Source: a virus. From it: 21,384 nucleotides of DNA. A program made the position numbers and the translations under genes. How positions within the stretch are numbered: the stretch's first letter is position 1; each line of letters begins with the position of its first letter. The stretch lies in IMG/VR virus record IMGVR_UViG_3300005098_000018, positions 1 through 21,384 of that record, one strand, 5' to 3'. The notes under the pieces are model-generated. The model had not been told where the DNA came from. It searched no databases and was given only the letters and a program-made list of their open reading frames with translations. Positions 6,967 to 21,384 of the stretch are shown in pieces.

Positions 6967-7467
6967 ATGGCTGAAAAGCAGCCGAATCAAAAAGGTGCGG
7001 AAGTTAGTGAAGAAGAGAAAAAAAAGTTTTATGAGCAACTAAAAAAGACTGAAGAAAAGAAGAAGTTAGAAATCCTGCGACAACTTGCTACACGTGATAA
7101 GCTTGAGAGAGATTACGAAGAAGATACTATTTATGTCACCTTCCATACGTCACCAGAGACAAAGAGGACAATAAAGGCAAAAAAGCCAAGTCCACAGGAG
7201 ATGATAGATATTTTACTTCTATCTGCAGAAGCCGCAAAATACGAAGGGCGTGCTGACCCAGAGTCACTAGCCAAGATGGCTGAAATATATAAACGGTTGC
7301 CAAAACTTGCTGCACGCCTATCTGTTGATAAGAAACTTAATGAAGAATTCTGGTCAAAGCATGTATCATTCACAACTCTCCAGAACTTCATATTTGAACT
7401 AATTGCTGCAACTCAGCGTTCTACATTGATTACGGAGGAAGAATTAGAATCCTTTCGTAAAGAGTGA
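6967..7467 (+). CDS. Tail assembly chaperone (gpG-like)
   Basis: This 166-residue, strongly charged, helical protein stands where lambda-like tails encode the tail assembly chaperone: after the tube genes and followed by a short overlapping frame. Residues 1-45 are Lys/Glu-rich coiled coil. A small strand-rich region follows (DTIYVTFHTSPETKRTIKAK, then KPSPQEMIDILLL), with helical AKMAEIYKRLPKLAARLSVD and a helical end (FIFELIAATQRSTLITEEEL). In phages this class binds the tape measure and recruits tube subunits, and a minor frameshift product carries an extra C-terminal domain. The ATG follows a strong AGGAGGT site that lies in a hairpin. The stop is TGA followed by C, a weak context. Identification rests mainly on context and on the +1-frame extension. 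Confidence 0.65.
   Translation: MAEKQPNQKGAEVSEEEKKKFYEQLKKTEEKKKLEILRQLATRDKLERDYEEDTIYVTFHTSPETKRTIKAKKPSPQEMIDILLLSAEAAKYEGRADPESLAKMAEIYKRLPKLAARLSVDKKLNEEFWSKHVSFTTLQNFIFELIAATQRSTLITEEELESFRKE
7448..7467 (+). other. Window for a candidate +1 ribosomal frameshift
   Basis: The chaperone frame ends TCC TTT CGT AAA GAG TGA C. The +1 frame is blocked by TAG at 7445-7447 and then open, so any shift must occur in these 20 bases. TTT-C and AAA-G each let one tRNA (Phe, Lys) slide forward one base and still pair fully with TTC or AAG. UGA followed by C is a poor terminator, as at the bacterial prfB +1 site. Which codon slips, and whether it slips, is not shown. Confidence 0.5.
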
Positions 7468-7660
7468 CATAGGTCTTCTTGAAGGCAAACTCTGTGAATT
7501 CTTCAGAGTGACTCCAAAACAACTAGGGCGAATGAGACGCGAAGACCCAATGGGCATGATGTTTATTGAGAGATATCTCTTGTATCTAGCAGAGCTTAAA
7601 GAAAAACAATATAAGAAAATGCTGCAGGAGCAGAAAAAGCGTAAACCGCGTCGTAGATAA
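7448..7660 (+). CDS. +1-frame extension of the tail chaperone (gpT-like), no start of its own
   Basis: After the TAG at 7445 this frame is open for 70 codons to TAA 7658-7660 and encodes, from 7469, IGLLEGKLCEFFRVTPKQLG, then RMRREDPMGMMFIERYLLYL and a basic tail ending KRKPRRR. The first possible starts are GTG 7508 and ATG 7532, both inside the domain and neither with a ribosome site. That suggests expression by frameshift from the upstream frame. A shift at AAA-G would give about 230 residues in total. In lambda the analogous gpGT fusion contacts the tape measure through the T part. Here the extension is followed not by the tape measure but by ten kilobases of surface genes. An assembly error creating the break cannot be excluded, but the arrangement matches a known pattern. 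Confidence 0.65.
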   Translation, partial: NPFVKSDIGLLEGKLCEFFRVTPKQLGRMRREDPMGMMFIERYLLYLAELKEKQYKKMLQEQKKRKPRRR

Positions 7661-9059: not shown

Positions 9060-10868
9060 ATGAGTTGGAAAGACACTAAACAGCCTGGCGATATAATAAA
9101 AGCTACAGATTGGAATGAGTTAGCCGATACAGTTATTCAGACATCTGGTGCATTTTGGGCACATTCTGGAAATACCTCCAACCCTCATAATGTCACTTTA
9201 GAGCAAGCGAGGATGGCAAACAATATCGTTTCTGGAAATATTGATATGAACGACAATAAAATACTGAATCTCGCCGAACCAACTTCTATTCATGATGCAA
9301 CAACTAAATTCTATGTCGATAGAGCTGTAACGTCACTTGGTGCTGCATATTGTATGACCGATGAGACTGATGCTGAAACAGGTTATAAGTTATGCTCACT
9401 TACACCACCGGATGCTTCAGAAACATATATTGAAGTCTCAAATCTCTCTGATAATCAATTAATAGGAGCGTGGATTAGTGCACCAGATGAAGAGCCGGCT
9501 CGGTTACTTAAAGGAGTTTTTGACTGGTTTCCAACTTTGGAGAAGACTGCAGGAACTCAGACATTACGGGTTTATTGGAAGCTATTTGAACGTTCTGGAA
9601 GTGCTGAGACCGAAATCGCAACGTCTGCAGATAGTAATGAAGTAGATGGTAAGGCGTCTTATGTCATACCTTTGCTTTTATCCGATGATTACACCTTCTC
9701 CAGTGGTTCTAGAGTTGTTGGGAAATTATACGCTAGGGTTGAAGGAACCGGTTCATCTCCTACAATTCGCGTTTATTATCAAGGAAATACAGCTTCAAGA
9801 TGGGAAATACCTGCAAATTCCGAAACTTTCAGAAAAATCTTTATTCCATATTCAGGTGCAGTAGATGATGTACATCTAGGCTCTAAGCAACTAACCGCTG
9901 AGACATTAGAGGCATCTTCCATAGTTCTTGATGGTTATACTATAGATGAGATTTCAAATGACTCAAGCCTCAGCGATGATTCCCCAACAGCATTAACAAC
10001 TGAACATGCAGTGAGGATATTTGGTTTAACCAACTTTTACCCCTCTTCTGCTGGTCATGACCATGTTACGAATACTTCTAATCCACATAATGTAACCTAT
10101 TCTCAAGTTGGTGCAATCCAAGATGCTGATAATACAGTAAAGAGTAGCCACATTGATTGGGGAACCAGCACAAATCAAGTATCACTCGACGATGTTCCTG
10201 ATGGTGCAACTTATGGCAAACTCACAATAACGGAGAGAGATGACTTAACTGATGGTGGTGATTCATCTTTACATTATCATTCATCCGACAGAGACCTTTC
10301 CAATGCTACTGGCGTGTTAGCTATAGGAAAAGGAGGCACTAATAATACATCTTTCACATCAGATAAATTCCTCATCTATGATACCAATGAAGACAAAATA
10401 AAGTCTTCTAATTACGATGGCACTTCTTTCGCATCTGCGACACACACGCACACTCTCGATGATTTGAGCAATACTTCAATTTCTTCACCCCTTTCTGGGC
10501 AAGTCCTTTCATACTTAGGAAACTGGAAAAATGTCTCTCCACCTCTTACATTTAGCCTTCCTGCTGTAGGAATAAAAGGCAATCGCTATATTCGATTAGC
10601 TCGATTCACAACTCCCGAAAATAAAACAGCATATCTCTGGATGGCTCAGATAAGCGATATCAACGGAAATACGGTGAATGGACTCCGTATTGAAATGCTC
10701 TCCGGAAGTACAGTAGTGTATGCTTGCTCTAGTAATACAGTCGAGATAGGTTCGCCTCTTGCATCCACCGCAGGAGATATAACAATTCGGGTGATGTATT
10801 CTGGTGCAGGTATTGGTGATGATAGCTACGTGCAGTGTGTTGGATTTATGCAGGTATCGATAATATGA
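9060..10868 (+). CDS. Tail fibre protein
   Basis: This 602-residue protein has clear fibre motifs. Residues 61-90 (IDMNDNKILNLAEPTSIHDA, then TTKFYVDRAV) match the 'M-x-x-x-K-I-x-x-L-x-x-P-x-x-x-x-D-A-x-x-K-x-Y-V' element found in many phage fibres. The hexapeptide NPHNVT occurs twice (41-46 and 341-346), each in a TSNPHNVT context, as in repeat-type tail fibres. Two regions between and after look like beta-sandwich domains (about 100-275 and 485-602). It has no signal peptide. A His-rich stretch ATHTHTLDDL lies near residue 460. Role: host recognition at the tail tip or side. I chose ATG 9060; an in-frame TTG at 9054 is possible. Its TGA overlaps the next ATG (ATGA). Confidence 0.82.
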   Translation: MSWKDTKQPGDIIKATDWNELADTVIQTSGAFWAHSGNTSNPHNVTLEQARMANNIVSGNIDMNDNKILNLAEPTSIHDATTKFYVDRAVTSLGAAYCMTDETDAETGYKLCSLTPPDASETYIEVSNLSDNQLIGAWISAPDEEPARLLKGVFDWFPTLEKTAGTQTLRVYWKLFERSGSAETEIATSADSNEVDGKASYVIPLLLSDDYTFSSGSRVVGKLYARVEGTGSSPTIRVYYQGNTASRWEIPANSETFRKIFIPYSGAVDDVHLGSKQLTAETLEASSIVLDGYTIDEISNDSSLSDDSPTALTTEHAVRIFGLTNFYPSSAGHDHVTNTSNPHNVTYSQVGAIQDADNTVKSSHIDWGTSTNQVSLDDVPDGATYGKLTITERDDLTDGGDSSLHYHSSDRDLSNATGVLAIGKGGTNNTSFTSDKFLIYDTNEDKIKSSNYDGTSFASATHTHTLDDLSNTSISSPLSGQVLSYLGNWKNVSPPLTFSLPAVGIKGNRYIRLARFTTPENKTAYLWMAQISDINGNTVNGLRIEMLSGSTVVYACSSNTVEIGSPLASTAGDITIRVMYSGAGIGDDSYVQCVGFMQVSII

Positions 10869-13800
10869 GAAAATTGGATATAATTATATTAATATTGGCA
10901 TTCGGTCTCCTAACCTGCGGTTTTTTGGGTATATTTGGCTTAATAAATATCGGCATTTCTATTCCATTACTATACACTACGGCATCTCTATTGTCTGCAT
11001 TGATAGTGGTTTTTGCAAAAGATTTCATTTTACGTAGATGGAAGGAATTCCTAATAGCGAGCACTCTATTAGCATCTTCAATACTAGTTCCGATAGCTGG
11101 TCCTCTGGACTCACAGGGTCCATATAATCCTCATAAAATAGAAAATAGAGAAGCACCAGGAGGAAGAGTGGCGTGGGATAGTCCTCAGAGAGCTGAATCA
11201 TCCGACGATGGATATGCAACTGCCACATCCGAAAAAGAGAATTCATATACTCATTATTTATGGGCTTATATATTTAATTTCAACATTCCAACTTCGGCAA
11301 CCATCAATGGAATAAAAGTTGAAATAGAAAGACACGCAAGTGGAGTAGTGGGTGCTGATTATGTGGTTGATAACATAGTTCGGCTTATAAAGAATGGTGA
11401 AGTTGTTGGAGATAATAAGGCAGATGATACAACACATTGGCCTAGCACTGATACGTATGCTGTTTACGGTGGAAGCAATGATTTATGGGGTACTACTTGG
11501 ACTCCATCCAACATAAATAGTAATGAATTCGGTGTAGCTCTTTCCGTGTATCTAAATGGTGCAGTTCGTGTTGAAGCATATGTTGACCACATTCGAATAA
11601 CTGTTTATTATACAATTGGTGGGAACGACGCACCCGAACTCTCTAATGAGAATCCGTCTAACGGTTCTACCAATGTTGTTGTGTCAGATACTGGACTCAT
11701 ATGTTCTGTCTATGTCAGCGACCAAAACGGAGATACTCTCACAATTACCTGGGCTACCAACGCTTCAACAGGAGAATGGCATAATGTCGCAACAGAGGCT
11801 GTTTCTGCAAACACAACTGTCTCTCATACTTTTTCAGAATTCTACCAATATGACCAAACCTATTGGTGGCGAGTATATGCTGATGATGGCACTGTAAATG
11901 TTAGTGAGACATATCATTTTCATACTGAGGGTGAGACATACACTACTGATTGGTTTGACCCTGAAAACTACGGTTCTATCAAAAATGAATGGCAATCTCC
12001 ACAAAATGCCTTGGAAAATGATTCAAACTCTGCCACAGCACAATGCTCTTCCGACAAAGATGAAGAAGATTATTATACATTTGATGTAAATATTCCCAGC
12101 TATGCAACCATTAAAGGTATTGAAGTGGTGTTTGAAGGTAACATAATGCTTGCAATACCTGTACCTGATGATTCTCGGATATCAGTCAAGCTTTCATGGG
12201 ATGGAGGAAGTAGCTGGAGCGAAAGTAAAATAGTACAGTTTGAAAGTATTTCAGAAGAATCAGTTTCTGTTGGAGGAAGTGATGATTTATGGGGTCATAA
12301 TTGGACTCCACAAGAATTGACAAACTCAAATTTCAAATTATATGCTAAGGCTATCTTCAACTCTTCCAATCAAGATGCTGATTCCCAAATTGATTATATA
12401 AAATTAAGAATCTTTTATTCTACAAGCTCGAATCAACCGCCGACTGTTTCGAATCCCAATCCAGCAAATGGGTCGATTGACGTTCCTGTTTCACCAAGCG
12501 GAGTTACATGTTCAGCGTATTTTGCTGACCAAGATGGTGATAATTTAGACTTATCTTGGTATTACTCATTTGACGGTTCAACTTGGTATCATGATGGTAC
12601 GGACACCAACAAATCACCAAACGCCACCTATTCTCACACTTATAGTCAATTCACAGAAGCAGGTGTAACATACTATTGGAGAGTTTATGCAGACGATGGT
12701 ATGATGAATATTTCGTCAGACATTTGGCACTTTAGAACATCAGCTCCACATCTTTATGTGATAGTAAACGATACTGACTACAATTTAGCGGTTCAATACA
12801 AAACTTGGAAAGAAGCGAATTCTGGATACACCGTTATCATAAAGAAATTCTCAGAAATAGAGAGCAATTCCAACTACTGGGCAACAGGAGCTTGGGGTGA
12901 TAGAAATCCATCAAATCCCTTCTATGTTGAACAATCATCTTGGACGGCTGCTGATGGATATAACGATACTGCCTGTAGAGTTCGTAATTTTATTCGAGAT
13001 ATTTATACAAATGATTTAAGTCTTGCCGCAGTTCTATTTTTTGGAAAGGACCCATACAGGATGGGGTATTGGACCGGAACAGACCCAGGTGACACTTATC
13101 CACCAGGGCATACTATTGATTTGTGGTATTTTGGTGCTTTGAATGGTACACAAAATAAAAATGATAATGAATATTTTTGTGAAAATCCAGGCTGGGATGA
13201 TTTGACTGACTTTGAAGTTGAAGTAGTCATAGGGCGTTTTCCATATGGCAGTGAAGAGGAATTCTGGTATATGTTTAATAAGACTAAAGCATATGTTGCT
13301 GACACTTCGAGCGGTCAGTGGCAGAACTTCCTCTTTTTTGACAGAAGTTTAAGTACAAATACTGCTGAAGATGACATCTGGGTCAATAAACTCAATTTTA
13401 CATATTTTAATATTTTAGACAATGTTGGAGCATTACATTGTCCATCTTCTGCTGGACTTGACCATACAATAAGCGATTCGGTCCATAATTCGTATGAATT
13501 CATCCAATACTTAAATGGCACTCATCCAGATTATGAAGACGGATTAAGCTTCTTTATCAATGAAGGACATGGAGGTCAATGGTGGGATGGTGCACCTGGA
13601 ACTCCAGATGATGGATACTTTGATTATGAAGGAGCAGAAGAAAAGGCATTTGTTGGCATATCAATAGGCTGTGGAGATAATATTTGGCTATCCTTTCCAA
13701 CATATTATGAATCAATGGCAAAACTTATATTCAAGCGAGGGGGAGCAGTCATCACAGTTGGAACAACCAGCACGCACTCTGACGACCAGCTCGTATTTCG

Positions 13801-15892
13801 ATTCATAGATGCATTGCACTCCACAAATTGGACATACGGCGACGCTCTCAAATATATTGTCAATCACGGATATGAACCATATCATGATAGCGGAATATGC
13901 TTACTGGGAGACCCAACACTCAAACCGAAAAACACTAAATACACCAACATCAAGATTTATGGTCCCACAATGCGAAACAACACCTATTCAATTCCAGGGC
14001 ATCCCTATACCGAATTTAAATTTATAGACTTGCAAGGAGATGACATAGATTCTGCATCACTATATTTTTACGATGGTAGTAGCTGGCATCTTGCAAAAAC
14101 ATTTTCAGATGATGAAGTTGTGAATTTTGAAGAATACTCTTATCTCTACTCTAGTTGTAACTCACCAGACACAGTGTGCAGAATTAAAATAGTGTGTAAT
14201 GCAAATGGAATTGTTTCCACAGCAAATATGAGATTCCAAACCCATCCATACGACGACTGGACAATTTTCTATATAGAAAAGAATGACACCAATCAACTTC
14301 AACCACAGATTCATGGACTACTTAGTGGTTTAAGTTATGCATACTACTATAAATACGAAGGTCTAATTGATGGAGAATACAAAACTCTTGAAGAAGGAGT
14401 GGATATAGCAGAACATCATCACTTTACCATAACAAACACAACGTTTATGAATGATTATGGCAACTATACAATACGATGTACTTTTTCATCAACAGGTGTG
14501 ACAAGAACAGAAACATTTGTCAAAACAATCAGAACAAATTATCAAACACCAGACCTTACTCTACTTCCAAACGACAACGGCACTGTTATCAATAATAATA
14601 TCACTGCAAACGGAGCAACTTACAAATGGCAGTGTATTGATGATGGTTCTTCTCACGATAGTGATACGACATACATCGAGGGTGGCACCGGCGAAGAGAC
14701 ATTCAATTTCGAAGACACAACATCGAAGCTTAAATATTTGAAGATAGTCATAGTATCGAGAGCAACCGGTAGCATATATAACTATCTATATGTCACGTTG
14801 AAATTCGGCTCCCAGCTAACAAGAATTGCAAAGATAAAAGTAGATAATACAAACTACCAAACATTCATCGTCTATATTACTAAGAATCCCTTCGCAAACG
14901 AAAATTGGACAGCTGATAATTTGACAAATTTAGAAGTTGGTCTCTATTTTGAGCCTGCTATGGTGATACCATCACCACCAAAAATCAGGTGTACATCTCT
15001 TTACGTTGAAGGGGCTATTGAAAACACACCACCGACGCTATCTAGCCCATCGGCGACACCATCGGTCGGAGAAGCGAGCAGTACGATTTTCTATTTCAAT
15101 ATCACATATTCCGACCCAGATAATGACTCACCGACTGAGATAAGAGTAAATATCAGCAAACCTGGATGGTATCTAAATTCGAGTATGAGTTACGTTTCCG
15201 GTGATAATTTAACTGGAGCCTTATATTCCTATTCTACCACTCTAAAAGCAGGTGTCTATGGCATATCATTCTATGCATTCGATGGAAAAGATGGAACAGT
15301 AAACGACCCTGATATTCAAATCAAGTCCACTTTCCGCATGGTGGTTCGTGCGGATGGAGAAGACTACTTTATATGGGTTGGAAAGAATTGCACAGCATCT
15401 GAGGCTGTTGAAGACATCCCTGGATTCGATGAGACATCCGAATACATTGCAATCTGGAATGGCACAACTTGGGATTCCACAAATGGTCTTTGGATATTCT
15501 ACTACGGCGATGGCTCAGGAGAAGACTTTAATATCCATACCTACGACATCATTAGGATATATCTTACTGACACCGGAACTGTTGAGATATATGCAACTCC
15601 CAATAACTACATCAATTACAGTGCTACGAGAACAGTCCTTCTAATAAATTCAACAAATAAAGGAGCTAACTATACTGGTTATACTGGCTCTACTACAACA
15701 CTATCAGACATTGTTGATGACGCAGGCTTAGAAGACGGTGAAGTTATAGGCTATTGGGATAATAGCACCTATGAATGGGAGATATATGTTATTGGCTTCT
15801 CTGATTTGAATGTGGAGATTGATAAGTTCACTGTAGTGTACACTAAAGTTGGTGACACCAAGACGTGGAATATACCTGGGCCTGAAGCATGA
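10865..15892 (+). CDS. Giant membrane-anchored surface protein with Ig-like domains and a C25 (gingipain-type) cysteine peptidase
   Basis: 1675 residues. The N-terminus has three hydrophobic segments (about 5-27, 31-50, 61-80) with KDFILRRWK between the second and third, so the long remainder should lie outside the membrane. A two-domain unit follows twice: A1 (104-250) + Ig-like B1 (254-356), then A2 (376-519) + B2 (522-627). Residues about 629-1022 are a family C25 peptidase: FINEGHGGQWWDG with catalytic His902, SIGCGDNIW with Cys936, and the C-terminal LLGDPTLKP (from 1013). The His-Cys distance of 34 is close to that in gingipains. Further beta domains include one Ig-like (about 1386-1490) and a C-terminal domain starting YFIWVGKNCTAS (about 1500). 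N-x-S/T sequons are numerous. It lies between fibre genes and is translationally coupled to both neighbours. Likely role: cutting or binding the host envelope. Substrate and location (virion or infected cell surface) are unknown. Confidence 0.88.
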   Translation: MRKLDIIILILAFGLLTCGFLGIFGLINIGISIPLLYTTASLLSALIVVFAKDFILRRWKEFLIASTLLASSILVPIAGPLDSQGPYNPHKIENREAPGGRVAWDSPQRAESSDDGYATATSEKENSYTHYLWAYIFNFNIPTSATINGIKVEIERHASGVVGADYVVDNIVRLIKNGEVVGDNKADDTTHWPSTDTYAVYGGSNDLWGTTWTPSNINSNEFGVALSVYLNGAVRVEAYVDHIRITVYYTIGGNDAPELSNENPSNGSTNVVVSDTGLICSVYVSDQNGDTLTITWATNASTGEWHNVATEAVSANTTVSHTFSEFYQYDQTYWWRVYADDGTVNVSETYHFHTEGETYTTDWFDPENYGSIKNEWQSPQNALENDSNSATAQCSSDKDEEDYYTFDVNIPSYATIKGIEVVFEGNIMLAIPVPDDSRISVKLSWDGGSSWSESKIVQFESISEESVSVGGSDDLWGHNWTPQELTNSNFKLYAKAIFNSSNQDADSQIDYIKLRIFYSTSSNQPPTVSNPNPANGSIDVPVSPSGVTCSAYFADQDGDNLDLSWYYSFDGSTWYHDGTDTNKSPNATYSHTYSQFTEAGVTYYWRVYADDGMMNISSDIWHFRTSAPHLYVIVNDTDYNLAVQYKTWKEANSGYTVIIKKFSEIESNSNYWATGAWGDRNPSNPFYVEQSSWTAADGYNDTACRVRNFIRDIYTNDLSLAAVLFFGKDPYRMGYWTGTDPGDTYPPGHTIDLWYFGALNGTQNKNDNEYFCENPGWDDLTDFEVEVVIGRFPYGSEEEFWYMFNKTKAYVADTSSGQWQNFLFFDRSLSTNTAEDDIWVNKLNFTYFNILDNVGALHCPSSAGLDHTISDSVHNSYEFIQYLNGTHPDYEDGLSFFINEGHGGQWWDGAPGTPDDGYFDYEGAEEKAFVGISIGCGDNIWLSFPTYYESMAKLIFKRGGAVITVGTTSTHSDDQLVFRFIDALHSTNWTYGDALKYIVNHGYEPYHDSGICLLGDPTLKPKNTKYTNIKIYGPTMRNNTYSIPGHPYTEFKFIDLQGDDIDSASLYFYDGSSWHLAKTFSDDEVVNFEEYSYLYSSCNSPDTVCRIKIVCNANGIVSTANMRFQTHPYDDWTIFYIEKNDTNQLQPQIHGLLSGLSYAYYYKYEGLIDGEYKTLEEGVDIAEHHHFTITNTTFMNDYGNYTIRCTFSSTGVTRTETFVKTIRTNYQTPDLTLLPNDNGTVINNNITANGATYKWQCIDDGSSHDSDTTYIEGGTGEETFNFEDTTSKLKYLKIVIVSRATGSIYNYLYVTLKFGSQLTRIAKIKVDNTNYQTFIVYITKNPFANENWTADNLTNLEVGLYFEPAMVIPSPPKIRCTSLYVEGAIENTPPTLSSPSATPSVGEASSTIFYFNITYSDPDNDSPTEIRVNISKPGWYLNSSMSYVSGDNLTGALYSYSTTLKAGVYGISFYAFDGKDGTVNDPDIQIKSTFRMVVRADGEDYFIWVGKNCTASEAVEDIPGFDETSEYIAIWNGTTWDSTNGLWIFYYGDGSGEDFNIHTYDIIRIYLTDTGTVEIYATPNNYINYSATRTVLLINSTNKGANYTGYTGSTTTLSDIVDDAGLEDGEVIGYWDNSTYEWEIYVIGFSDLNVEIDKFTVVYTKVGDTKTWNIPGPEA
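11174..12745 (+). repeat. Tandem duplication of a two-domain unit (A-B-A-B) in the giant protein
   Basis: Unit 1 (11174-11930) and unit 2 (11990-12745) encode the same domain pair. A copies share 'W-x-SPQ', a VNIP/FNIP strand with 'ATI-x-GI-x-V', and DLWGTTWTP versus DLWGHNWTP, ending HIRITVYYT versus YIKLRIFYS. B copies share 'NP-x-NGS', 'DQ-x-GD', YWWRVYADDG versus YYWRVYADDG, and HFHT versus HFRT. The DNA has diverged, so the duplication is not recent. Confidence 0.85.
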
Positions 15893-16281
15893 CTCTGCCA
15901 ATTCCATTTCCGATATATGGTGAAACCAAGGATTCAAATGAAGATATTCTTCCGAATCTACCTGTGAAGATTTCAGGAACATCTGAAGTGACAGTTACTT
16001 CTGACGGAAACGGTAAATATCTTTATAACATTCAGAACATCGCTACAGAAGGCCAAGATTTACATGTGAGAGCATCATATCTTGGTGAGCACACCGACAT
16101 AACTTGGAATGTTAGTTTAACACCGCCATCTAAGCGTATAGATGTTATCCTTCAAGAGTCTATAAGTACTGGAGAAAAATGTCTCAATGGCTATCGCGCA
16201 GTTGGTAATCAGGCTTATATCTTTACGTCTAAAGAAGTTGAGTCGTATCTAAAGATATCAGATATTGATTGGAAAGCATGA
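15889..16281 (+). CDS. Small Ig-like (carboxypeptidase-regulatory-like) surface protein
   Basis: A 130-residue protein whose first ~95 residues look like a beta-sandwich of the carboxypeptidase-regulatory/Cna-B type. The N-terminal strand is LPIPFPIYGETKDSNEDILP, then LPVKISGTSEVTVTSDGNGK, YLYNIQNI and a closing strand THIT-like region TDITWNVSL. A 'T-x-x-DGNGKY' turn is typical of these domains. The C-terminal ~35 residues (ILQESISTGEKCLNGYRAVG onward) are unrecognised. It has no signal peptide. It starts by ATGA overlap with the giant protein and ends by ATGA overlap with the repeat protein, so the three are translated as a set. An accessory fibre or adaptor domain is plausible. Confidence 0.7.
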   Translation: MTLPIPFPIYGETKDSNEDILPNLPVKISGTSEVTVTSDGNGKYLYNIQNIATEGQDLHVRASYLGEHTDITWNVSLTPPSKRIDVILQESISTGEKCLNGYRAVGNQAYIFTSKEVESYLKISDIDWKA

Positions 16282-17945
16282 CTCTATATTCAGCATTATT
16301 TGATACAGGGAAATTTGATTTCTCTTATTTTAATCGTCAGTTTACAGAGTTTTCTATTGATACACTTCTTAAGGAAATTAATCTTAGAAGCCACACTTTT
16401 TCATCTTTAATCCAGTCCATCCAGAAACGGCATTATGCTATTGATTCACTCTTCCAAGAGACTGTTGAAATTGCTAAAGAATTAGATTCTCTTCTTCAGA
16501 AGACAAAGGAAGTTTCTGCTAATGTTGATGCTCTACTCCAACGTGCAGATACTGCTTCTCTTGTAATCGACACATTATTATCACAATCTCAATCATTGTC
16601 AGAATATATCAACACTATTCTTCTACAGGAAAACATTACCAAAGAACAGTATATTGATGTCTTACTCCAAAGTCAATATATTCTCTCATCTGTTATTTCT
16701 ACCCTTCTCGAGCTAAGAGGTGTATTGATTTCGCATAACATTTCAACTTTACTCGAGAAGACATTTGACATTCGTAGTGAAATAAGTGCTCTAGTTCAAG
16801 TAACAAAATCTTTGGTGCATCCACTTCATAGTCTTCTCCAACACACCACTCATCTTTCTCATAATATTTCAACACTTCTCTCTAAGACTTATACATTAGT
16901 AACCAAAATTGATACTCTTCTAGGCACCATCAACCAAGAAGTTGTTTATTCACTTAATACTCTTATTTTAGGTGTCCAGTCACTTATGTATCGATTCCAA
17001 TCTGTTGTTGGCTCCTCCAATTTTGCTGAATATTATGTCAATGCAGTACTCCAAGAAAAGACAATGAAATCTTATGTTTTACATGCCATTGCAGAACTGC
17101 AGAATATAGAAGTAAGAAATATCCTCAATGCTCTTCTTTCCCAAATCAATGAAAAACAACTGGACTTCAATGCAATCCTCCAATCTCTCGAATCTCTTCC
17201 TATTTCGTTTGATGTGCAATTAGAAGCATCGAGTGTTCTCCAATCTCTCTTCGATGCGATAGTCCAAAAAGAAACTGCAATTTCTCATACACTTCTTTCC
17301 ACACTTGAAAAAATGCTTGGTAAAGAATACCTCTTGGATGTTATTCTTTCTTGCATTAAGAGCACTGATGCTTTCATTGATGCCATAATTTCAATATCAA
17401 ATCTTTCTATTCAACATATATTAGATGCAATATTGTCTAGGAGAGAAAGTCCCAAATATAAATTCGACACTGTAGTTGGTGCCGCAAATTTTGTATTTAT
17501 GTATCTTGATGCCATACTTTCTAAGAAGACACTAGAATCGATGATTTTAGATGCTCTAACCATAACCACAAGAAGAGCTGATTATACTCACAACTCTTTT
17601 CTGAAGAAGCAGTATAAGAAAAGTCTATACGCTGATTCAATACTCCTTGGAAAGAAGGAAGAGAGAATCAAGTTCTTAACAACATTGCTAAAGCTTGGCG
17701 TTGCTAGAGACTTTATATTTAATTCAATTATTCAATCTCGAAATCTTGCAACGTATGATTTTGATTCCTATCTCTTGCCAGAAGCCCCTCTTCGTAGCTA
17801 TACACTTCAAACCATTCTCTCAGGACCAAATATTTCAACCCTCTCCTTTACTGTATACATCTTTAGACGCGGATTTATAGACACTGTTGAAACTTCAATT
17901 TCTCCGATTATGGAAATATCTGCACGTGCGTCTGCAGTTTGTTAA
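16278..17945 (+). CDS. Repeat protein of 35 units of a ~14-residue motif, probable fibre or rod
   Basis: 555 residues. From residue 28 to 524 the whole protein divides without gaps into 35 units, 26 of them 14 residues long, eight of 15 and one of 13. The pattern is [D/N/S]-[A/T/S]-hydrophobic-hydrophobic, eight to nine variable residues, and a closing hydrophobic (I, L, V or F). Examples are DSLLQKTKEVSANV, DALLQRADTASLVI and DAILSKKTLESMIL. There is no signal peptide or membrane segment. A solenoid or an unusual coiled coil would make an extended rod, suiting a fibre. Start is ATG 16278, overlapping the previous stop; an in-frame TTG at 16269 would add three residues. It is followed by another small Ig-like gene. 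I do not recognise a named family. Confidence 0.8.
   Translation: MTLYSALFDTGKFDFSYFNRQFTEFSIDTLLKEINLRSHTFSSLIQSIQKRHYAIDSLFQETVEIAKELDSLLQKTKEVSANVDALLQRADTASLVIDTLLSQSQSLSEYINTILLQENITKEQYIDVLLQSQYILSSVISTLLELRGVLISHNISTLLEKTFDIRSEISALVQVTKSLVHPLHSLLQHTTHLSHNISTLLSKTYTLVTKIDTLLGTINQEVVYSLNTLILGVQSLMYRFQSVVGSSNFAEYYVNAVLQEKTMKSYVLHAIAELQNIEVRNILNALLSQINEKQLDFNAILQSLESLPISFDVQLEASSVLQSLFDAIVQKETAISHTLLSTLEKMLGKEYLLDVILSCIKSTDAFIDAIISISNLSIQHILDAILSRRESPKYKFDTVVGAANFVFMYLDAILSKKTLESMILDALTITTRRADYTHNSFLKKQYKKSLYADSILLGKKEERIKFLTTLLKLGVARDFIFNSIIQSRNLATYDFDSYLLPEAPLRSYTLQTILSGPNISTLSFTVYIFRRGFIDTVETSISPIMEISARASAVC
16359..17849 (+). repeat. 35 tandem ~42-bp units coding the 14-residue repeat
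   Basis: 497 codons are accounted for exactly by 35 consecutive units. The repeat is visible only in the protein; DNA copies are not close to identical, so it is an old, purifying-selected array rather than a recent expansion. Early units favour I/V/L at the last position, later ones favour F/L. Confidence 0.8.
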
Positions 17946-18439: not shown

Positions 18440-21384
18440 ATGCCATCTCTTGGTGAATTATCTGTTAGATTAGTCCTCGATTTCCGAGGAATTGCAGGAC
18501 AGCTAAAGCAATTTAGAAAAGTACTCCAATCTGGTCTCAATGCCATTTCTAAAGAAATTGCAGCAGGCTTTAAACCATTTGGCGTCACCGCTCAACAATT
18601 CGAAAAAGCTGTAAAAAATATTACCAAGGCTGCTGCGAAGTCAACTGCTAAAGCTCAGATTGCGATAGATAAAGCAGCTGAGAAGTCGAAACAAGCAACT
18701 GAGCGGATGAGTCGTGATGTTTCCACTCGCATTCCATCGGCGTTTTATACACTATATCGTAGAACTGATGAATCAATTGGACAAACCCTCAAAACAATTT
18801 TTTCATTTAGGAATATGGTTGCAAAGATTGCTCACTATATCACATTCACAGTCGGTGTACAATTAGTTATGACACTTGTTCGCGGCTTCAGAGAGATGGT
18901 TGATAGTACAGAAGAATTTCAAAGAGCAATAGTTAATGCTGCAACCATCTCTGGATATCTTGGTGATGCATTCGATGAAGTTGTTCAACATCTGTCGAAA
19001 CTCGCTTTAGCACTTTCTAAAGAAACAATCTTCTCTGCAACAGATGTGGCAAAAGCCTTCTATCAGATTGCATCAGCAGGATATGACGTCTCAAAACTCA
19101 CTAAAAGAGAATTGATTCCTATACTTCAATATGCTGCTGCAACCCAAACAAATCTAGAAGATGCAACCTATGCTGTTCTTACTGCACTAAAATCATTCAG
19201 ATTAGATATATCGGAGACTGGTAGAGTCGTAGATGTGTTTACGGCTGCAATAACTAAATCCTTCCAGAATTTCCAGCGACTTAAAGAGGGTATGAAATAC
19301 GTGGGTGCAACAGCAGGCTCTCTCAACCTCTCTTTAGAAGAGACAGTTGCAGCTCTCTCCGCATTGGTTGATAGAGGACTAGAAGGAAGTCAGGCTGGAC
19401 AGCGTCTCAACATGATTCTTACTAGACTACTTAAACCTACCGACCAAGCAGCTGAAACGCTGCAGCAACTTGGGTTGACAGCAGACGATGTAAATCCAAA
19501 ATATTATAGCCTCGTAGAAATTCTTTATAAACTCAAGGCTGCAGGTTTTGGTGCTGCAGAAGCATCAGCGATGTTCAGGGCTAGAACAGCTGCCTCTGCC
19601 ATGGTTCTTGTCGATTCCGCAGATAGTGTTGCAAGATTTTCAGAGATGCTCAGACAGTCGCAAGGCATCACAGAATCAGTTGCAAAATATCAGGAGAAGA
19701 CATTATGGGGAGCACTCACGAAGATGACAAACGCATTTCAAGCTGCCACAATAACTCTGGGTGAAAAACTCATTCCTGTATTTGAAAATCTTGCAAACTT
19801 CATCAAGACTAGAGTTGTTCCTGCATTCGACGCATTTAGTATTTTATTCTCAATTCTTAAACGTCTCTTACCACTTTTCATAGGATATAAGGTTACAATT
19901 TTCATCATGAATAAGCTCTTTAAGAGTGTTACTGCTGCAGTTCTTCTTAAAGCTGCTGCATTCACACAATCGGCTAAAGCAACGCTACAAGAAGCTATTG
20001 CTGCAAGAATAGCTGCACAAATGAATAATAGCTATGCAATTTCTGCTACAAATGCTGCAGCAGCTCAAAGAGCCTTAAACCTTGCATTAATAGCAAATCC
20101 AATAGGTTTGTTCCTTTTTGCACTTTCCTCTCTTGTCTCTTATATTGCACTCTTCAACATCACCACGAAAAAGGCCAAGGACCCACTGGGTGAATTGAAT
20201 ATGGAAATCCTTAATGCAGCTGAATTCACTGAACAATGGAAGAATGAATTAAGAGATTTCATGAAAGTTGCTTATGGAAAAGCTTTTGGTAAAGATGTGT
20301 CATTCATGATTAAAACTCTTCAAGATTTTGGAATAGTTGCAAAGGGAACAAATGCATTAGTTAAAAACTTATTTGTAGATATGGCTAAACATCCAGAACA
20401 ATATTCAGCAACTTATGAAAAGCTTGCTGAGAAAATGGGTATGAGTGTCGACGAGGTAAAGAACTATGTTAAATATCTTTCAAACATCCCCGAAGTTATT
20501 ATCCTTCCCCCTCTTCTTACTCCGCTGCCAAATCTTAGAGAAACTATGGCACCTAAATTATTTAAAGCACTTGCTGAGATTATTAAAGAATTTGGCGTTG
20601 ATATTGCAGTTTTTGTGGAAGAAGCATCAGGCGAGATATTTGGATTCCAAATTTCACTCGCTGAAATGAAAGATGCGCTGGATGAAGCTAGGTTGGCGCA
20701 AGAAAATCTTAATAGAATTCTTAAGGAATCGCCTGATGATTATGATGCAATAAGAAATGCGGCAATGAGGTGTGTTGAAGCACAGGAAAAGCTGGATTCA
20801 ATAGAAAATAACTTCTTAGTAACTCTAAAGAATGTCATACAAACAATTCGTGCCTTGCCTGGCCCTTATGACAAAATGATTCAACTCTTGGAAGACATGG
20901 CATCTGCATCCTATGACGCTTTCACTGCAAAAAAAGAGTTAGAACAAGCAATTCGAGATGAAAGCGAGGCTGTGGAAGAGTTAGCAAATGCTATCGCTGT
21001 TTACGGTATGGAATCATTTGAGGCTAGAAATGCTGAGTATAAACTATTTGGTGCAATGAAGACAAGAGTTCGTGTGGAAGAAGAGTATGCTAATGCAAAA
21101 CGAGAATATACTGCTGCAGAAAGAGAATATCAATATATGCTCAAGCATGGGATAAAAATAAAAAAAGAGGATGGTACTGTTACAATAAAGCTTAATGAAA
21201 CACAAAAGCAACTTCTCTCCTTTGCTAAGGATTTGATAGATTTGAGAGAACAATATATCAAATTGGAAAGTGAGTACACACAGTACCAAGCGAAGGAGCA
21301 AGGATATCAATATCTCTTAGAGAAGGGAGAGCGAGCTCTTGCTGAGAAAGCAAAGCTATTATACGAAGCGAGGAAGAAGCTCTA
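18440..21384 (+). CDS. Tape measure protein (3' end outside window)
   Basis: The frame is open from ATG 18440 to the right edge, at least 981 residues. A GTGAT site (18430-18434) sits five bases before the ATG. Residues 57-94 are an Ala/Lys helix. A hydrophobic segment lies at about 125-147 (IAHYITFTVGVQLVMTLV). The TP901-type tape measure core is at about 155-350, with QIASAGYDVSKL around 213, ALVDRGLEGSQAGQRLNMIL around 307 and KPTDQAAETLQQLG near its end. Further hydrophobic segments lie at about 476-495 and 549-574 (LIANPIGLFLFALSSLVSYI), the 'NPIG' helix common in this family. After that come long coiled coils. Tape measures fix tail length, chaperone tube assembly and often pass into the host envelope. 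The full length, and hence tail length, cannot be read here. Confidence 0.9.
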   Translation, partial: MPSLGELSVRLVLDFRGIAGQLKQFRKVLQSGLNAISKEIAAGFKPFGVTAQQFEKAVKNITKAAAKSTAKAQIAIDKAAEKSKQATERMSRDVSTRIPSAFYTLYRRTDESIGQTLKTIFSFRNMVAKIAHYITFTVGVQLVMTLVRGFREMVDSTEEFQRAIVNAATISGYLGDAFDEVVQHLSKLALALSKETIFSATDVAKAFYQIASAGYDVSKLTKRELIPILQYAAATQTNLEDATYAVLTALKSFRLDISETGRVVDVFTAAITKSFQNFQRLKEGMKYVGATAGSLNLSLEETVAALSALVDRGLEGSQAGQRLNMILTRLLKPTDQAAETLQQLGLTADDVNPKYYSLVEILYKLKAAGFGAAEASAMFRARTAASAMVLVDSADSVARFSEMLRQSQGITESVAKYQEKTLWGALTKMTNAFQAATITLGEKLIPVFENLANFIKTRVVPAFDAFSILFSILKRLLPLFIGYKVTIFIMNKLFKSVTAAVLLKAAAFTQSAKATLQEAIAARIAAQMNNSYAISATNAAAAQRALNLALIANPIGLFLFALSSLVSYIALFNITTKKAKDPLGELNMEILNAAEFTEQWKNELRDFMKVAYGKAFGKDVSFMIKTLQDFGIVAKGTNALVKNLFVDMAKHPEQYSATYEKLAEKMGMSVDEVKNYVKYLSNIPEVIILPPLLTPLPNLRETMAPKLFKALAEIIKEFGVDIAVFVEEASGEIFGFQISLAEMKDALDEARLAQENLNRILKESPDDYDAIRNAAMRCVEAQEKLDSIENNFLVTLKNVIQTIRALPGPYDKMIQLLEDMASASYDAFTAKKELEQAIRDESEAVEELANAIAVYGMESFEARNAEYKLFGAMKTRVRVEEEYANAKREYTAAEREYQYMLKHGIKIKKEDGTVTIKLNETQKQLLSFAKDLIDLREQYIKLESEYTQYQAKEQGYQYLLEKGERALAEKAKLLYEARKKL

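Follow-up and report, generated by a model that had tools for sequence, protein, structure and literature searches.

Family C25 of clan CD comprises cysteine peptidases such as PorU and the gingipains RgpB and Kgp, the gingipains cutting with Arg or Lys at P1; a 2015 review records the family as lacking in viruses (PMC4357240). Cellular genes for predicted extracellular C25 peptidases occur in sediment archaea, including Thermoprofundales and Bathyarchaeota (PMC6752024, PMC6461988), and C25 dominates the exported peptidases of estuarine subsurface sediment (PMC6752024). The archaeal tailed virus HFTV1 uses the S-layer protein as its receptor (PMC9973310). This siphovirus carries envelope-modifying domains (a deacetylase-like turret domain and baseplate proteins), which reside in the virion and act on glycans, and its tape measure shows no evident proteolytic domain (PMC12494034). 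Viruses of sheathed archaea encode SH proteins, which are amyloid-like and 150–350 residues long; it has been proposed that exported viral proteins break archaeal sheaths open so that virions can leave, and virus-encoded proteases have been mentioned as a possible alternative (PMC11576556). The exit of tailed viruses from archaea that lack murein and are enclosed in an S-layer or sheath is an open question, to which proteases have been suggested, and not pinned down, as an answer (PMC11576556). Spindle-shaped viruses of Thermococcales encode transmembrane (TM)-anchored proteins with swappable extracellular lectin domains (PMC12934983).

The locus described here combines features of these systems. 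It encodes a C25 domain within a 1675-residue, predicted membrane-anchored protein, and lies in the window, by which we mean the whole 21,384-nucleotide stretch analysed, a complete 21.4-kb IMG/VR record. Like the C25 peptidases of sediment archaea, the domain is predicted to be extracellular and comes from a sediment setting, but it is encoded by a virus rather than by a cellular gene. Like the SH proteins, it belongs to a virus-encoded, predicted exported protein that may attack a protein envelope for egress, although the protein is far larger, anchored and equipped with a peptidase. The HK97 capsid is homologous to that of HFTV1 (28% identity), and the protein shares with those of the Thermococcales viruses a TM segment and swappable extracellular domains, although the viruses differ and the latter proteins carry lectins and no peptidase. 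The sequence-only reading had suggested that the enzyme may be little described, and this assessment holds: literature searches on viral C25 or gingipain returned nothing relevant, and no earlier viral C25 was found. The viral C25 and, more broadly, the anchored modular family appear to be new, and family C25 is thus extended to viruses.

Gene setting and probable host

The window encodes, in addition to the C25 gene, an S78 prohead protease (PF04586, E=8e-13), an HK97 capsid (PF05065, 1e-14), head-tail joining proteins, tail tubes, a fibre-like gene, three small-to-medium genes and a tape measure (PF10145, 4e-37), a set characteristic of Caudoviricetes; TerL is present in the related genome G003. 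The features used below are as follows.

9060..10868, plus strand: fibre-like gene, directly upstream of the C25 gene (PHROG/profile search, relatives)
10865..15892, plus strand: giant membrane-anchored surface protein (predicted), 1675 residues, carrying C25 (ORF calling, orthologue L042:1948-6945 at 72% identity, anchor-profile family)
10880..11107, plus strand: anchor of three hydrophobic segments, residues 6-24, 33-51 and 63-81 (Kyte-Doolittle scan, homologous anchors in relatives)
11162..11623, plus strand: D1, beta-sandwich-like domain (SATINGIKVEIER...VDHIRITVYYT) (sequence comparison with other phages)
11630..12745, plus strand: D2-D4, two Ig/fn3-like repeats on either side of a second D1-type domain (weak Big_5 match, self-similarity, relatives)
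12758..13924, plus strand: Peptidase C25 domain (PF01364 E=7e-23, whole-record scan, alignment, Foldseek order)
13568..13570, plus strand: catalytic His902 in EGHGG (invariant alignment column)
13670..13672, plus strand: catalytic Cys936 in IGCGDN (invariant alignment column)
15029..15889, plus strand: C-terminal domain D7 (kept when the cargo is swapped)
15889..16281, plus strand: carboxypeptidase-regulatory-like domain gene, next downstream of the C25 gene and overlapping it (conserved at 84-89% along with the cassette)
16278..17945, plus strand: fast-diverging helical-repeat protein (24-52% identity between close relatives)
18440..21384, plus strand: tape measure, running off the contig (PhageMin_Tail E=4e-37; PHROG tape measure E=2e-61)

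The window capsid is related to those of 39 other IMG/VR loci (39–95% identity), and its nearest named relatives are mostly capsids of haloarchaeal tailed viruses (26–31% identity). G003 encodes a Rad51-like ATPase and an ERCC4-HhH nuclease. Together, these capsids and genes suggest an archaeal host, a possibility that the sequence-only reading had touched on; the virus probably infects an archaeon, and this is probably a sediment archaeon. In the genome collection, query P0001 found no match and the capsid alignment matched only a contig from Guaymas Basin. G003 also encodes two radical-SAM-like ORFs (CxxxCxxC) beside its tail genes (including L041:10545-13227), an anaerobic NrdD and, grouped together, genes of the GCS2, COOH-NH2 ligase and RimK-type ATP-grasp kinds.

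The C25 domain and the protein that carries it

A C25 peptidase had previously been read at 12749–13930, with catalytic residues His902 and Cys936 (counted from the ATG at 10865) and a closing LLGDPTL motif, and the frame, coordinates and motifs proved to be as described. Profile PF01364 matches residues 4–392 of this 394-residue stretch over profile positions 2–373 of 374 (E=7.1e-23), with 81.9 bits against a curated cut-off of 23 bits, a match which by sequence profile is far beyond chance. The whole 1685-residue ORF gives E=3.4e-21, and a scan of the whole record places the domain at 12758–13924. Domains from 20 bacterial genomes, all on the correct strand (six of 26 bacterial stretches, being on the wrong strand, were excluded), were aligned with the two viral domains described here: every one of the 22 sequences has His and Cys in the columns of His902 and Cys936, and the GDP motif within LLGDPTL is nearly invariant. 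Profile and alignment thus confirm 12758–13924 as a full-length C25/clan CD domain with an intact His-Cys dyad.

Comparison of a predicted structure with gingipain, which had been proposed as a check, gave a qualified answer. AlphaFold2 run on the two viral C25 sequences produced a low-confidence model (mean pLDDT 37; 31 from a single sequence). The five best PDB matches of the pLDDT-37 model in Foldseek were all C25 (RgpB 4ief and 1cvr; PorU 6za2), the best with E=0.037 and probability 0.99, and this ranking supports a C25 fold without proving the caspase-like alpha/beta fold. Neither phmmer nor a profile search of PDB sequences reached gingipain. The domain resembles RgpB, Kgp and PorU in its full-length profile match, dyad, GDP motif and Foldseek order; unlike gingipains, it is virus-borne and lies in a predicted membrane-anchored protein, and no C25 propeptide or type IX secretion (T9SS) C-terminal domain was matched by Pfam or NCBIfam in the 1685-residue ORF. 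The PorU equivalog NF033707 is the best NCBIfam match, but it is partial and reaches 24.2 bits against a cut-off of 420. By profile and active site, the domain is best regarded as a member of family C25 that is neither a gingipain proper nor PorU.

The C25-bearing ORF spans 10835–15892 (1685 residues), and the likelier start is the ATG at 10865, which overlaps the stop of the fibre gene as ATGA, an arrangement also seen in the orthologue in locus L042. The protein begins with MRKLD followed by the three hydrophobic segments, with the positively charged stretch KDFILRRWKE between the second and third, and this positive-inside N terminus is conserved in the orthologue. Hydropathy and charge (Kyte-Doolittle, positive-inside rule) predict that the N terminus lies inside and that about 1600 residues form a C-terminal ectodomain on the outer side. 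The protein contains 37 N-x-S/T sequons against 21.7 expected from shuffles (z=3.8), whereas |z| is at most 1.8 in all other structural genes of the window tested (the largest value, 1.8, is that of the fibre). When the reversed motif is used as a control free of composition effects, the ratio of sequons to reversed motifs is 423:213 in the anchored family, against 32:32 in the other virion genes of the window, 114:124 over all ORFs of the 89-kb G003 and 238:315 in TM-less ORFs occupying the same slot of relatives. The orthologue shares 31 of the 37 sequons, including six of the seven inside the C25 domain. Such enrichment is the expected mark of passage across the membrane and of encounter with the N-glycosylation machinery, and would not be expected in a tail protein whose assembly takes place in the cytoplasm; the giant protein is probably N-glycosylated, as judged from its sequons.

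Domain D1 is not confined to these viruses: it is widespread among the TM-less structural proteins of GC-rich, probably bacterial phages that are unrelated to them (L091-L096; MW202473, MW202478), in two cases under a gene annotation of tail tubular protein A.

A second virus and an anchored family with exchangeable middles

A search of viral databases for further C25 domains, also proposed earlier, yielded a single additional virus: C25 was found in one of 36 related records, IMGVR 3300013103_000052 (G002), with a domain 50% identical to that of the window and both catalytic residues kept. Scans of viral contigs with single- and two-sequence C25 queries found none beyond this virus, and none was found in 50,697 phage records or 72,556 plasmids; these scans relied on short peptide patterns, which may miss distant C25. 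PHROGs gave no match for the domain. In a survey of 149 genomes of one bacterial phylum (that of MAG G037, NCBI title Planctomycetota), 83 contained C25.

The G002 orthologue (L042:1948-6945) is 72% identical overall, very unevenly along its length. Identity is 0.89 in D2 and 0.93 in D7, compared with 0.68 in the anchor, 0.50 in C25 and 0.47 in the C25 core; the corresponding dN values are 0.06, 0.03, 0.25, 0.45 and 0.51. The C25 core thus appears to be the fastest-evolving part of the protein, where dS is saturated and selection and recombination or domain exchange are inseparable. That the dyad is kept at 50% identity indicates a constrained active site in a catalytic domain that otherwise changes fastest.

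G002, a close relative, is a scaffold from Guaymas Basin that had been placed in the bin of a Planctomycetota MAG. A 27-kb Guaymas Basin viral contig (L044/QNBZ01000001.1) within a GTDB species genome labelled Planctomycetota is the source of that genome's only C25 match, and its placement there is probably a binning error. Misassembly or capture of a host gene, which had been raised as an alternative, was rejected: the same architecture recurs with its flanks in an independent record at 50–93% identity per domain, and the MAG containing the second viral record carries C25 nowhere else.

Homologous giant proteins are encoded in at least 13 related viral records, in most of them in the same position before the tape measure, and a profile of the anchor picks out giant proteins in 14 of 40 related records. 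More distant viruses have giant ORFs of 900 to more than 2300 residues directly after the same upstream gene, sequon-rich and starting with a TM-positive loop-TM arrangement. The C25 protein shows the features that define the family, namely an N-terminal TM/positive-loop anchor, a sequon-rich ectodomain and a conserved C-terminal domain. The anchor is common to the family, as is the C-terminal domain where the sequence reaches the end; D7 is 87–93% identical among three viruses and 30–40% identical in distant ones (G034, G024, G035b, G022 and G035; E=1e-19 to 1e-45). The middles differ: C25 in two viruses, TSP3 and fn3 in L046, FG-GAP and TSP3 in G035, FG-GAP-like and beta-helix in G035b, and a PKD-like domain in G022. 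In L046, the anchor is nearly identical over the RRWKEFLIASTLLASSIL helix and the C-terminal 262 residues are 87% identical, whereas the middle is wholly different and the tail genes are only 33–69% identical to those of the window. As C25 is present in only two of about 14 anchored relatives, the peptidase is not the general function of the family.

The fibre gene precedes the anchored-protein gene in the window, L042, L090, L097, G023/24 and G034. In L090 and L097, the C-terminal ~216 residues of the fibre (85% identical) and the anchor move together between viruses whose capsids are only 58% identical. The giant protein is dispensable: it is absent from G003 (89 kb, circular, with an end repeat; capsid 88% identical), whose tail module otherwise matches. 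Cassette swapping and this absence indicate an accessory, exchangeable component rather than core tail machinery. G035 encodes two anchored giant proteins, of 1954 residues (L053:11804-17665) and 3173 residues (L099:1159-10677), the larger of which shows FG-GAP-like and beta-helix matches and contains 113 sequons, compared with 48 reversed motifs.

Possible role of the protein, and neighbouring genes

What might a virus do with a tethered peptidase? The N-terminal helices, the sequons, the TM-anchored homologues with other cargo and the absence from G003 suggest export and display on the surface of the infected cell. Our main reading, to which we assign a probability of roughly 0.5, is that the C25 domain forms the cargo of a viral protein that is modular, anchored in the membrane and displayed at the surface, where it acts on the proteinaceous envelope of the host. 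The giant protein would be made late, together with the structural genes; its N-terminal helices would insert it into the host membrane, and some 1600 residues, probably N-glycosylated, would be exported to the outside. Acting from the surface of the infected cell itself, the tethered C25 would then cleave protein of the host envelope (S-layer or sheath), which could weaken the layer for virion release, remove the virus's own receptor, or both. The sequence-only reading had placed the enzyme in a viral tail module and proposed a role in entry or exit. The gene order, with fibre and tape measure as neighbours, agrees with the former, but the protein itself is probably not a tail component, and the same four features (membrane helices, sequons, TM-anchored homologues with other cargo, absence from G003) speak against entry, so that exit or surface remodelling appears to fit better.

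Some observations point away from surface display. The C25 gene lies between the fibre and tape measure genes, the anchored gene directly follows the fibre gene in several relatives, TM-less tail-type proteins from other phages contain D1 too, and the sequons could have been inherited from captured secreted domains. The main rival, a peptidase borne by the virion as a tail fibre or tip component, with C25 cutting the S-layer at adsorption so that the tail reaches the membrane, would account for this position, the ATGA overlap with the fibre gene, the D1 domain common to tail-type proteins of unrelated phages and the joint travel of the fibre C terminus and the anchored protein. We nevertheless consider it unlikely, because three predicted N-terminal membrane helices would be unusual in a tail assembled in the cytoplasm, the sequons are enriched, and neither G003 nor most of the records that have the same tail genes contain the protein. 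The recurrent order of fibre and anchored-protein genes, the swapping of cargo, the fast evolution of C25 and the exchange of the cassette between viruses with 58% capsid identity would also be expected if the enzyme, displayed on the infected cell, removed or masked the fibre's protein receptor, so that progeny neither stick nor re-enter and the cargo follows the receptor. Such receptor destruction or superinfection exclusion seems rather improbable as the main function, given several relatives in which no fibre gene directly precedes the anchored protein.

The remaining explanations concern the activity of C25 itself. By analogy with gingipain maturation and the PorU sortase, C25 might mainly cut its own polypeptide to release or transfer the ectodomain; autoprocessing is frequent among enzymes of clan CD, gingipain being one of them (PMC4357240), and PorU is the best NCBIfam match. 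That match falls far below its cut-off, however, and homologous anchored proteins have the same frame without C25, which leaves self-processing with little chance of being correct. It is very improbable that the domain serves as an auxiliary nutrient gene, an extracellular peptidase helping an infected sediment archaeon to digest detrital protein: despite the prominence of exported C25 in estuarine sediment and its presence in Thermoprofundales and Bathyarchaeota (PMC6752024), the domain is embedded in a protein of the structural module, and homologues in the same slot lack it. An inactive adhesin module of C25 fold is equally hard to credit, since His and Cys are kept at 50% identity and align with the invariant dyad, even though the other cargos resemble adhesion or recognition modules (FG-GAP, TSP3, fn3, beta-helix) and C25 is the most divergent part of the protein.

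If the surface-display reading is correct, the protein would be a proteolytic counterpart of endolysins and receptor-destroying enzymes, and a concrete candidate enzyme, with a defined active site, for the exit of archaeal viruses. A broader proposal, which we offer tentatively and regard as somewhat doubtful, is that tailed archaeal viruses deploy, from the tail module, a family of giant glycosylated surface proteins that are tethered to the membrane and whose enzymatic or binding cargo can be exchanged; where that cargo is C25, the infected cell would present a viral cysteine peptidase that dismantles the cell's own protein wall or the fibre's receptor. Modular anchored viral surface proteins would then lie hidden in tail modules, where annotation would label them tail proteins.

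Several neighbouring genes are also of interest. The protein with degenerate helical repeats (IDTLLQ...) encoded at 16278-17945, with counterparts at L041:1-2310 and L042:7322-9508, is 24–52% identical between relatives, compared with 60–97% for its neighbours. The S78 prohead protease (795-2489) has an N-terminal extension with a nucleotidyltransferase-like motif, GSLAVHGESNNDIDIVV, at residues 56–72, which is kept in G003 and L097; Pfam NTP_transf_2 and Polbeta matches to this extension are marginal only. Behind the gene upstream of the tail fibre region (6967-7467), a conserved +1-frame extension (...NPFVKSDIGLLEGKLCEFFRVTPKQ...) is found at about 7410-7658 and also in L003. It looks like the product of programmed frameshifting as in tail-assembly chaperones (G/GT type), with ...TCC-TTT-CGT as the site.
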